Source: Gallionellales bacterium GWA2_54_124
GTDB taxonomy: Bacteria; Pseudomonadota; Gammaproteobacteria; Burkholderiales; Gallionellaceae
Reading direction: 5' to 3'
Assembly (NCBI GenBank): GCA_001801025.1
Contig: MGWO01000007.1
Coordinates: 434,001 to 498,000 of the forward strand
DNA length: 64,000 nt
Shown: positions 41,649 to 47,271 of the stretch, piece by piece
Layout: each line of letters begins with the position of its first letter
How positions within the stretch are numbered: position 1 is the stretch's first letter
Program-made: the position numbers and the translations under genes
The notes under the pieces: model-generated
The model's database searches: none
What the model saw: only the letters and a program-made list of their open reading frames with translations
What the model was told of the DNA's origin: nothing

Positions 41649-42260
41649 TCAGATGCCGGTGATGAAAGCGTCGATATGAGAGAGGAATTCTTTCAGCGAC
41701 GAGGTGCTGAGCAGAAAAACCAGACAGCCTTGTGTTTGGCGTTTTTCTATCGTCAGATCAATGTGTAGTGCCATCATAACAGGCTGGTCAATCTCACCAG
41801 TGATGTTTTGCAACAGGAACTCGGGCGAATCGACAGTATACTGGGGCAGGGTGCTCTGCAGCGTCAGTCCGAGCAAATCGGCCATCGCAGACAGGCAGGC
41901 ATTCAATATAATGTTGCCCAGTTCGCACATGGCATCTTGTTCAAACTCCGCTAATTCTGCGAGGCTCACGTGCGATCCCATCATGTCGCGTACAATTTCC
42001 AGTGCGCGCTCTTCTGTGAACAGCAGCATCGCTATCGCATCAAACGGTCCGCTGAAGTGCTGCCTGACGGCACCGACGCGTGCGCTGTCCAGCGGCAACT
42101 TCTGGGCTTGAATTTCAGAAGAGGGGAAAATCTGTACGTGCGGTACGGACAGCTGAACTTCCTCGCCGATGATTTCGCTCAGGCTGGAAGCTGCGCGGCC
42201 TGCACCGATATTGAAAATCTCGCAAAGGGCATCCGTGTGCAATTCAGATAAAGAAATCAC
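41649..42260 (-). CDS. CheC-like chemotaxis phosphatase
   Basis: ALCEIFNIGAGRAASSLSEIIGEEV and AMCELGNIILNACLSAMADLLG (paired E..N active-site helices). Confidence 0.88.
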   Translation of the reverse strand: MISLSELHTDALCEIFNIGAGRAASSLSEIIGEEVQLSVPHVQIFPSSEIQAQKLPLDSARVGAVRQHFSGPFDAIAMLLFTEERALEIVRDMMGSHVSLAELAEFEQDAMCELGNIILNACLSAMADLLGLTLQSTLPQYTVDSPEFLLQNITGEIDQPVMMALHIDLTIEKRQTQGCLVFLLSTSSLKEFLSHIDAFITGI

Positions 42261-42634
42261 ACCGCACCTTCGAAGTGGTCGAGCGCTTGCAAGACGGTTT
42301 TTTCGGTAACGGGCTTGGACACGAAGCGGGCGCCGAGCTCGATGGCGCGTGTCTGCTGTGTCTCCTGAATATTTGCCGAGAAAATGGCGATGCGAATTTC
42401 AGGATGCTTGTCGAGAATTTGCTCTGCTGCATCCGTACCCAGCATGCCGGGCATGTTGATATCCATGCTGATGAAATCAGGCAGGTCGCGCTCGACTATC
42501 TGGAGCGCTTCATCGCCGCTAGTCGCTTCAATGATCAGCCATTGCGGGCGTTTTGCCAGAATGAATGTGCGGATCATCAGTCGGGAGAGTCGGCTGTCGT
42601 CAACGATGAGCATTTTTTTGATGCTATTTGGCAT
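42257..42634 (-). CDS. CheY-like response regulator
   Basis: MLIVDDSRLSRLMIRTFI, DFISMDINMPGMLGTDA, FVSKPVTEK; ATGA overlap with the cheC-like gene. Confidence 0.95.
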   Translation of the reverse strand: MPNSIKKMLIVDDSRLSRLMIRTFILAKRPQWLIIEATSGDEALQIVERDLPDFISMDINMPGMLGTDAAEQILDKHPEIRIAIFSANIQETQQTRAIELGARFVSKPVTEKTVLQALDHFEGAV

Positions 42635-43803: not shown

Positions 43804-44241
43804 ATGAGCAATCCTTTTAGCGTAAGTCTGATTTGCTGGCACGATGGCGAACCTCTGCTCAAGTCCGTCCGCGAGGCGGTATTCATTCATGAACAGGGTA
43901 TTTCTCCCGAGCTGGAGTGGGATGGCGCGGATGAGCATTGCCGTCATGCGCTGGTACTGAGTGCGCAGGGCGAGGCGATCGGCTGCGGCCGTATGATGTC
44001 GGACGGTCACATCGGGCGTATCGCGGTGTTGGCAAAATGGCGCAAACAGAAAGTCGGAACCGCGATCGTTGAGGCGTTGCTCGACTATGCGCGTGCACAC
44101 GATTATCCTCAGGCGGATGTCGATGCGCAGACCTATGCGATGCCGTTCTATCATAGCTTTGAATTCATCGAGGAGGGGGCTGCATTTATCGATGCGGGCT
44201 TGCCTCACATTAAGATGCGACTCAAGTTACTTGCCCGTTAA
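43804..44241 (+). CDS. GNAT-family N-acetyltransferase
   Basis: VREAVFIHEQGISPELEWDGAD, GRIAVLAKWRKQKVGTAIVEALL. Confidence 0.92.
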   Translation: MSNPFSVSLICWHDGEPLLKSVREAVFIHEQGISPELEWDGADEHCRHALVLSAQGEAIGCGRMMSDGHIGRIAVLAKWRKQKVGTAIVEALLDYARAHDYPQADVDAQTYAMPFYHSFEFIEEGAAFIDAGLPHIKMRLKLLAR

Positions 44242-44895
44242 ATAGTCGGCTACGCTGAAATTCATCACGGCTTCGGGTCGCGAAACGGTAAAGGCGGTGA
44301 TCACGGCACCGGTGGCAAACGCTTCCGCGAAGATGAGGATGGGGGCGGGGATCAGGTAGTGGTACTGGATTTCCGGCCAGGTGTAGTGGGTGAGCGCGAG
44401 CAATACCAGTGTGGTGGCCGCCATCATCAGCATGCTCGCCAATGCCGCGCAGGCAAACCCGTTTACCAGCACGAACAGGAATAAATTTTTCGGCAGGTAG
44501 CGCCGGCAAAAGCGCAGCAGCATTTCGCCAAACAGCATGGGTACGGCCAGCATCAGCAGCCCGTTGATGCCCAGTGTTGCAAGCTCCTGTCCGGAATACA
44601 GCCAGCTGCCTGCCATGATCAGGGTGAGCGCAATCAGCGCAATTGGCCATCCGAACATTAGCAGGAACAGGGTTGCGCCGATCAGGTGGAAATTAAAACC
44701 CGGGCGGATGCCCGCGCTCATTTGCCAGAAAGCGGCAGTGCAAAAAATAAGCCCGATCAAGGCATTGAACATGCCCTGATTGTTGAACAGGGTTTGCCAG
44801 GGCGCGCATCTCGCAGCCCGGTACAGCAAAAAGGCAAAGGCATAATTGGCCAGCAACAGGCTATCGCCGGTGAATAGCGCAGCCGGCAGGTTCAT
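44227..44895 (-). CDS. CbiM-like energy-coupling-factor permease component
   Basis: Multi-TM; MSAGIRPGFNFHLIGATLFLLMFGWPIALIAL; CbiM-family-like. Confidence 0.75.
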   Translation of the reverse strand: MNLPAALFTGDSLLLANYAFAFLLYRAARCAPWQTLFNNQGMFNALIGLIFCTAAFWQMSAGIRPGFNFHLIGATLFLLMFGWPIALIALTLIMAGSWLYSGQELATLGINGLLMLAVPMLFGEMLLRFCRRYLPKNLFLFVLVNGFACAALASMLMMAATTLVLLALTHYTWPEIQYHYLIPAPILIFAEAFATGAVITAFTVSRPEAVMNFSVADYLTGK

Positions 44896-45897: not shown

Positions 45898-47271
45898 TTA
45901 ATCCTGTTGTATGTCTGGCAGGGGGGTGAGTGCAGCACGTTCATTAAGGAACCGGCCCAGATGACGGTCGTCGCGGTCAGCGTGGTTCAACAGCCAGTCC
46001 GACAAAAACAGCTTGATGCGGTAGCCTGTATACCAGGGATCGCAGCCTGCGGTTTGAATTTCATTGCTGAGTTTGTTAAAAAAGTGCTTGTACGAGCGGT
46101 GCTGGGCAATATGGTCGGCGGCGAAAGGATAGTGATTTGTGTGCATCAATTGCTCTTCGAAATCGAAATGCGCTTCGATTTTAATTTTCAGCTTGGCGAT
46201 CAATTCATCTACCGCATCATGGCGATTGATGACCGCGTCCCGTAGTGCGCCGATGAGGCTCATTAAGTCCTGATGGTGGTTGTTGATTTCGTTATGCCCG
46301 GCATCGGGTTGGTGGCTTGCCTCGTCTTCGGTATAGTCCTCCGAACCCGTGTGCAGGCCCGTTGAAAGATAATCGGTGCAGCGCTGCAGATACACTCGGG
46401 CCGGGATGTCGTCGGGATTGTCACGTACGATTTCTTCCAGCATCGGTTGCGCGCGCGCGATTGAGCGTGTGTGATACAGGGCGAGGGCCTCTTCGAACTT
46501 CTGCAGGCTTCTGGATTTAGCGTCTCTGATCATCGGCGCGTCGTGATTGAAGACCTCGTAGATCGATTCTGCATTGGTGTTGTAGGTGACTTTCACGCGC
46601 CCCAGATGACGCACCAGAAATTTTTCAGGTTCGGACAGGCTGTATAAGGTGTGTTCGCTGATCAGCAGTGGTGCACCATAAGTTTTAGTCAGTGTTTGCA
46701 GGCGGGACGCGAGGTTGACTGTATGACCTAAAACCGTTCCCTCCATACGGTTGCCGCCGCCGATGACGCCGAGCATCAGCACGCCTGTATTGATGCCGAT
46801 GCCGATGCGGATCGGTGCATACGCCGCGCGCTCTCGTCCCGCATTGTATTCGTCAAGGCGCGCCAGCATCGACAGGCCCGATGCCAGTGCATCGTCGGCG
46901 GTGGTCGGAAACAGCGCCATGATCGCATCACCCATATATTTGTCGATGATGCCGCGGTGCGCGCTGACCACCGGATTCATCACGGACAGGTAGGAATTGA
47001 TCATGCTGAAGGTTTGCTGCGGGGTCATACTCTCCGACAGCGACGTGAAATCGCGTATGTCGGTGAATACGACGGACATGTTTTTTTCGATCTGGTCGCC
47101 CAGTTCCACATCGATCAGGCTGGTTTTGCCAAGAAAGGCGATGATGTCGCGCGGCACGAAATGCAGTAACGTACGTTCCAGCAGTTTTAAACGCGCCCGC
47201 GTACCGGCATGCGCCTCGCGTTCGGCATTCAGCTCGTGCGTATCTTCAGAGATGTCGAAACTCGCGCTCAT
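45898..47271 (-). CDS. Class III nucleotide cyclase fused to C-terminal hemerythrin domain
   Basis: VVFTDIRDFTSLSE, DKYMGDAIMALFP, IRIGIGINTGVLMLGVIGGGNRMEGTVLGHTVNLASRLQ; HHQDL, HFDFEE, YPFAADHIAQH, WLLNHADRDD. Confidence 0.93.
   Translation of the reverse strand: MSASFDISEDTHELNAEREAHAGTRARLKLLERTLLHFVPRDIIAFLGKTSLIDVELGDQIEKNMSVVFTDIRDFTSLSESMTPQQTFSMINSYLSVMNPVVSAHRGIIDKYMGDAIMALFPTTADDALASGLSMLARLDEYNAGRERAAYAPIRIGIGINTGVLMLGVIGGGNRMEGTVLGHTVNLASRLQTLTKTYGAPLLISEHTLYSLSEPEKFLVRHLGRVKVTYNTNAESIYEVFNHDAPMIRDAKSRSLQKFEEALALYHTRSIARAQPMLEEIVRDNPDDIPARVYLQRCTDYLSTGLHTGSEDYTEDEASHQPDAGHNEINNHHQDLMSLIGALRDAVINRHDAVDELIAKLKIKIEAHFDFEEQLMHTNHYPFAADHIAQHRSYKHFFNKLSNEIQTAGCDPWYTGYRIKLFLSDWLLNHADRDDRHLGRFLNERAALTPLPDIQQD

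Follow-up and report, generated by a model that had tools for sequence, protein, structure and literature searches.

Hemerythrin (Hr) domains are known on methyl-accepting chemotaxis proteins (MCPs), on GGDEF and HD-GYP proteins, and on kinases. The Hr partners reported by Bailly et al. include MCP, GGDEF, histidine kinase, and CheY-like and GGDEF combinations; about 20 further cases are given as unidentified (PMC2556348). The review by Kitanishi describes MCPs and c-di-GMP enzymes, and adenylate/guanylate cyclase is mentioned only within the expansion of HAMP (PMC9388753). Emerson et al. counted 14 hemerythrin genes in Sideroxydans ES-1 and 3 in Gallionella ES-2, and their classes include no class III cyclase (PMC3770913). 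As to regulation, O2 is given as an inhibitor of Bhr-DGC, and activity of Bhr-HD-GYP is confined to its reduced form (PMC8846402). A fusion of class III cyclase and hemerythrin was not found described in the open-licence literature. The pairing reported here is real and conserved; novelty is claimed for the description alone, as databases may already contain the fusion without comment.

The fusion is encoded in a 64,000-nt stretch of contig MGWO01000007.1 (hereafter the window) from Gallionellales bacterium GWA2_54_124, a member of Gallionellaceae. A complete gene of 457 aa spans 45898..47271, and includes a class III cyclase, a helical linker and an Hr domain. The coordinates given in the first-pass annotation are exact; the strand, which had been left unstated, is the minus one, as for all the features listed below, and coding on the plus strand is ruled out by several stops. 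At the N-terminus a helix (residues 11-35, 47167..47241) runs into the cyclase, and no sensor domain was found in this region by Pfam and by the AlphaFold2 secondary structure, here of low confidence. The catalytic domain (residues 63-229, 46585..47085) matches PF00211 with 67.9 bits against a cut-off of 21.9 (E 1.1e-18). The hemerythrin four-helix bundle (residues 327-444, 45940..46293) is recognised by the NCBIfam model TIGR02481 (67.6 bits, cut-off 51.75, E 1e-18), and over residues 327-439 by PF01814 (32.0 bits, cut-off 25.3, E 1.9e-7), while the narrower hemerythrin model NF033749 scores below its cut-off (65.5 vs 84). Since both domains exceed curated cut-offs, chance is excluded. Both Pfam families are matched by all of the 18 aligned relatives; they are the only Pfam matches in the window protein, from which GGDEF and HD-GYP output domains are absent.

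Among proteins of solved structure, the closest in sequence are CyaB of P. aeruginosa (3r5g, 4.5e-23) for the cyclase and DcrH (DcrH-Hr, 1.4e-7) for the hemerythrin domain. An AlphaFold2 model was built with 18 relatives, and Foldseek matched its first part to CyaB, OaPAC and Cya2, its second part to DcrH-Hr (2avk, TM 0.81). The mean pLDDT of the model is 68 overall; confidence is about 80-94 in the four-helix bundle and lower in the cyclase core, and the model carries no information on the coupling of cyclase and Hr domain. Judged on sequence and fold, the protein is a member of the class III cyclases and of the hemerythrin domain family. The fusion proposed in the first-pass annotation is therefore backed by homology and fold for both domains, and all the motifs quoted there are found in the protein.

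The seven ligand positions of the diiron site (HHEHHHD) are all occupied, as had been anticipated. H333 in helix A (46273..46275), which falls on a ligand His of DcrH-Hr in the alignment, and H368 in helix B (46168..46170) are the Fe2 ligands; H387 (46111..46113), H391 (46099..46101) and H430 (45982..45984) are the Fe1 ligands; E372 (46156..46158) and D435 (45967..45969) are the bridging carboxylates. The positions were assigned by alignment with both DcrH-Hr and the relatives, and irons were assigned to helices according to PMC2556348. The initial reading of the motifs was right in the presence of the ligands, and is corrected in two details. The first ligand is the second His of HHQDL (H333 in 21 of 23 rows, H332 in 2), and the ligand Asp is found at His+5 (D435, kept in 44/45 relatives) rather than at His+4 (D434, 18/45). 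Right after the bridging Asp, R436 and H437 complete a DRH motif (window 45961-45966), Arg being kept in 43 and His in 44 of the 45 relatives; no role of H437 as an iron ligand is known, and DcrH has KK at the two positions. Of the six positions of the O2 pocket, assigned by the Phascolopsis numbering, four match (L336, F369, W426, L427), while A431 and L438 stand in place of Ile and Tyr. According to the criterion used, six hydrophobic residues line the O2 pocket (PMC3770913). The pocket Ile adjoins H430, and the pocket Tyr lies three residues after D435; by eye, the Ile is retained in 5 other sensory Hr proteins of the same genome (L114, L116-L119).

Catalytic, metal-binding and substrate-binding roles of specific residues are established for class III cyclases. 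The catalytic core had been described as intact, and all six residues are indeed in place: the metal-binding D71 (47059..47061) and D115 (46927..46929), the transition-state N186 (46714..46716) and R190 (46702..46704), and the substrate-specificity residues K111 (46939..46941) and T179 (46735..46737). Each is invariant in the 45 full-length relatives, and unchanged in 51/51 when 6 relatives from other classes are included. K111 and T179 form a pair of the ATP type, as CyaB has Lys and Thr at these positions, while the guanylyl cyclase Cya2 has Glu and Gly. For this reason the predicted product is probably cAMP, and of the two products named at first, cAMP or cGMP, the latter is not favoured. 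That the enzyme yields cGMP, or both products, seems very improbable: class III enzymes can in general be promiscuous, but none of the tool results backs cGMP, and the K/T pair is invariant in all the relatives.

A TPR-like helical linker (residues 246-304, 46360..46536; pLDDT about 80-95) separates the two domains. It is common to cyclases without hemerythrin: the alignment with cyclase-only relatives ends at about residue 298-305, hence the Hr domain is attached right behind the TPR-like helices. A two-metal core with an ATP-type pair, a conserved helical linker, and a hemerythrin fold with seven diiron ligands can be read from the sequence, and we consider it reasonably likely that the protein is a class III adenylate cyclase, soluble and probably homodimeric, the activity of which is set by the C-terminal bacteriohemerythrin domain. 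Crosstalk between the two halves is what we infer, with the redox state of the diiron site as the predicted signal. When O2 is low and iron is available the site would be diferrous, and it would become oxidised as O2 or another oxidant rises; the resulting change in the bundle would reach the cyclase dimer through the linker, and alter the cAMP output. Activity is probably higher in the reduced form, a direction of regulation for which Vibrio Bhr-DGC and Ferrovum Bhr-HD-GYP serve as the analogy.

The closest named relatives of the window protein are Gallionella MAGs, in agreement with the fit to a microaerophile noted in the first-pass annotation. Gallionella are microaerophilic Fe(II) oxidisers. 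Full-length relatives reside in Gallionella and Ferrigenium MAGs, in other Nitrosomonadales, and in one gammaproteobacterial and one deltaproteobacterial MAG, and their occurrence in dozens of independent genomes rules out a recent or chance fusion, or an assembly artefact. The full-length form was identified in 75 of 158 Gallionellaceae genomes, spanning 10 of 15 genera, at times in two or three copies; the maintenance of the fusion as one polypeptide at this frequency argues for a coupled function. In the order-level sample the full-length form is found in 12 of 399 genomes, the window's own counted; in the class-level sample (369 genomes), beyond the window's own, cyclase-only relatives were found, and no full-length form. 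A phylum-wide profile search retrieved more full-length members, with an N-terminal receiver (L180) or cNMP-binding and PAS domains (L181, L184). By eye, the N-termini of L016 and L091-L093 are hydrophobic and probably span the membrane. L181-L184, which belong to other classes of this phylum, unite four kinds of domain in a single chain, namely cNMP-binding, PAS, class III cyclase and hemerythrin (verified with Pfam in L181 and L184), an arrangement that suggests feedback by the product.

The ligands have not been retained evenly. An Fe2 histidine is missing in 23 of 51 relatives, H333 being lost in 10 and H368 in 16; both are kept in 28, and all seven ligands in 25, window protein included. 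E372, H387 and D435 are changed in one sequence each, H391 and H430 in none. Related sequences are non-independent, and a fairer figure than raw row counts is given by the tree of the cyclase part, which features 4 changes at H333, 4 at H368, and 3 in total at the other five ligands. Fe2 losses extend to L181-L184, which carry Ala/Thr at H333 or Cys at H368. It is established that O2 binding by hemerythrins occurs at Fe2; with 23 of 51 members devoid of an Fe2 histidine, the family as a whole cannot operate through canonical diiron O2 chemistry. In the survey by Bailly et al., 18% of bacterial hemerythrins are altered; most of these are single-domain proteins, and most alterations (63%) fall in helix C, where Fe1 ligands are located (PMC2556348). 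The bias of the cyclase family is opposite, in a post hoc comparison in which sampling differs and related sequences are non-independent. One helical turn before H368, H364 is present in 12 of 15 relatives which lack H368 (among which L016, L091, L092, L093, L009 and L160), and in 2 of 30 which have it. This may reflect a moved ligand or shared ancestry; most such rows cluster in one part of the tree, and H364 is not claimed to be a compensating replacement.

An Fe2 histidine is absent from about 45% of the relatives, and Ala takes the place of the pocket Ile in the window protein; reversible O2 binding is therefore no more likely than a signal from redox state or iron. We tentatively suggest, as a possible though not the leading scenario, that the Hr domain repeatedly gave up the O2-binding Fe2 half and kept the Fe1 half, made of three His and two carboxylates, becoming a one-iron (iron/redox) switch, of which the window protein would represent the intact starting state. 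A rival reading, of rather low probability, is that the domain senses occupancy by iron or another metal, and reports metal loading, not O2, through a stable three-His, two-carboxylate site to which the second iron is optional. The conservation of Fe1 histidines and bridging carboxylates in nearly all of the 51 sequences, the 8 tree changes at Fe2 histidines vs 3 elsewhere, and the dependence of the group on Fe(II) oxidation would be in line with it; yet all seven ligands, more than a one-metal site would need, are present in the window protein and in 24 further relatives. The decay of Fe2 ligands in several lineages is also compatible with the Hr domain being a structural or dimerisation part, or an O2/iron buffer, which leaves the cyclase unregulated, and Hr domains without known role occur in some other enzymes (PMC4257069). 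We regard this as improbable, since five of the seven ligands are nearly invariant, the fusion persists across genera, and other recognised sensor domains are missing from most relatives. Regulation of the cyclase by its Hr domain remains the preferred reading.

In the same genome, hemerythrin matches are 8, in architectures which include HD-GYP-Hr, PAS-GGDEF-Hr and, by eye, two apparent Hr-histidine kinases; class III cyclase matches are 5, one being a CHASE2 cyclase; cNMP-binding-domain matches are 15. The HD-GYP protein with a C-terminal hemerythrin (L114, G000:C13:93320-93652) resembles Ferrovum Bhr-HD-GYP with the domain order reversed, and its first helix C His is apparently Gln (by eye). 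The first-pass annotation had proposed a search for Crp/cNMP effectors. Several cNMP proteins carry the phosphate-binding motif FGEMA...PRSA, namely a MscS-like channel (L101), a SulP-like transporter (L111) and a double-cNMP oxidoreductase (L103), as typed by eye, and the small stand-alone proteins L102 and L106; the motif is absent from the three Crp/Fnr-like proteins examined (L107, L112, L168), and a Crp-type regulator endowed with it was not found. Accordingly, cAMP targets are plausible, but a Crp regulon probably is not. Small cNMP-binding-domain proteins and transporters or channels with cNMP domains would be the recipients of cAMP, rather than a classical Crp. In the protein at G000:C7:1014566-1015186 (L103/L104), two cNMP-binding domains that retain the motif are joined to a region resembling FAD/NAD(P) oxidoreductases and to one resembling 4Fe-4S ferredoxins.

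SBP5/permease and ygfZ neighbours are common only to L001, L002 and L007, permeases being found in L004 too; given such sparse sharing, a conserved operon partner is rejected and no partner function is assigned. An upstream ORF of 118 aa has no Pfam match and no counterpart at E 1e-5 at the compared loci, and promoter and terminator scans gave results at chance level. Two other features of the window may be mentioned. A CbiM-like membrane protein is encoded at 44227-44895, flanked by ygfZ and a GNAT gene, and the neighbours examined include no further gene for cobalt transport; at 41649-42634, the gene of a CheX/CheC-like phosphatase adjoins that of a single-domain response regulator, with an overlap of a few bases.

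If the coupling holds true, the fusion would provide a direct link between a non-heme diiron redox/O2 sensor and cAMP, while the papers found place such domains only with chemotaxis, c-di-GMP enzymes and histidine kinases. About half of the genomes sampled from this family keep the fusion, and its members, Fe(II) oxidisers, must hold position in opposing gradients of O2 and iron. The natural series of proteins with and without Fe2 histidines lends itself to a direct test of whether hemerythrin sensors need O2 binding.

The cyclase half shares with CyaB of Pseudomonas aeruginosa (3r5g) and other class III adenylate cyclases the fold, the metal Asp pair, the Asn/Arg residues and the K/T pair. 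In the cyclase relatives examined, however, sensor domains are PAS, 7TMR-DISM or CHASE2, located N-terminally, and hemerythrin is absent, whereas the only recognised sensor of the window protein is the C-terminal Hr domain. The photoactivated adenylate cyclases OaPAC and bPAC likewise have a class III core controlled by a fused sensor, which is a light-sensing N-terminal BLUF domain instead of a diiron domain. DcrH of Desulfovibrio vulgaris (2avk) is the closest solved Hr, and is similar in fold, in the seven ligands, and in the position of the domain, C-terminal to the output (PMC9388753). The output of DcrH is methyl-accepting chemotaxis, that of the window protein a cyclase, and the pocket residue Ile119 of DcrH, picked for engineering of the site (PDB 3waq, 3whn), corresponds to Ala431. 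Bhr-DGC of Vibrio cholerae and Bhr-HD-GYP of Ferrovum similarly join Hr to a cyclic-nucleotide enzyme, and respond to O2 or redox state (PMC8846402, PMC9388753). They make or break c-di-GMP by C-terminal GGDEF or HD-GYP domains; in the window protein, in contrast, the Hr domain is C-terminal, the enzyme is a class III cyclase, and the predicted messenger is cAMP.
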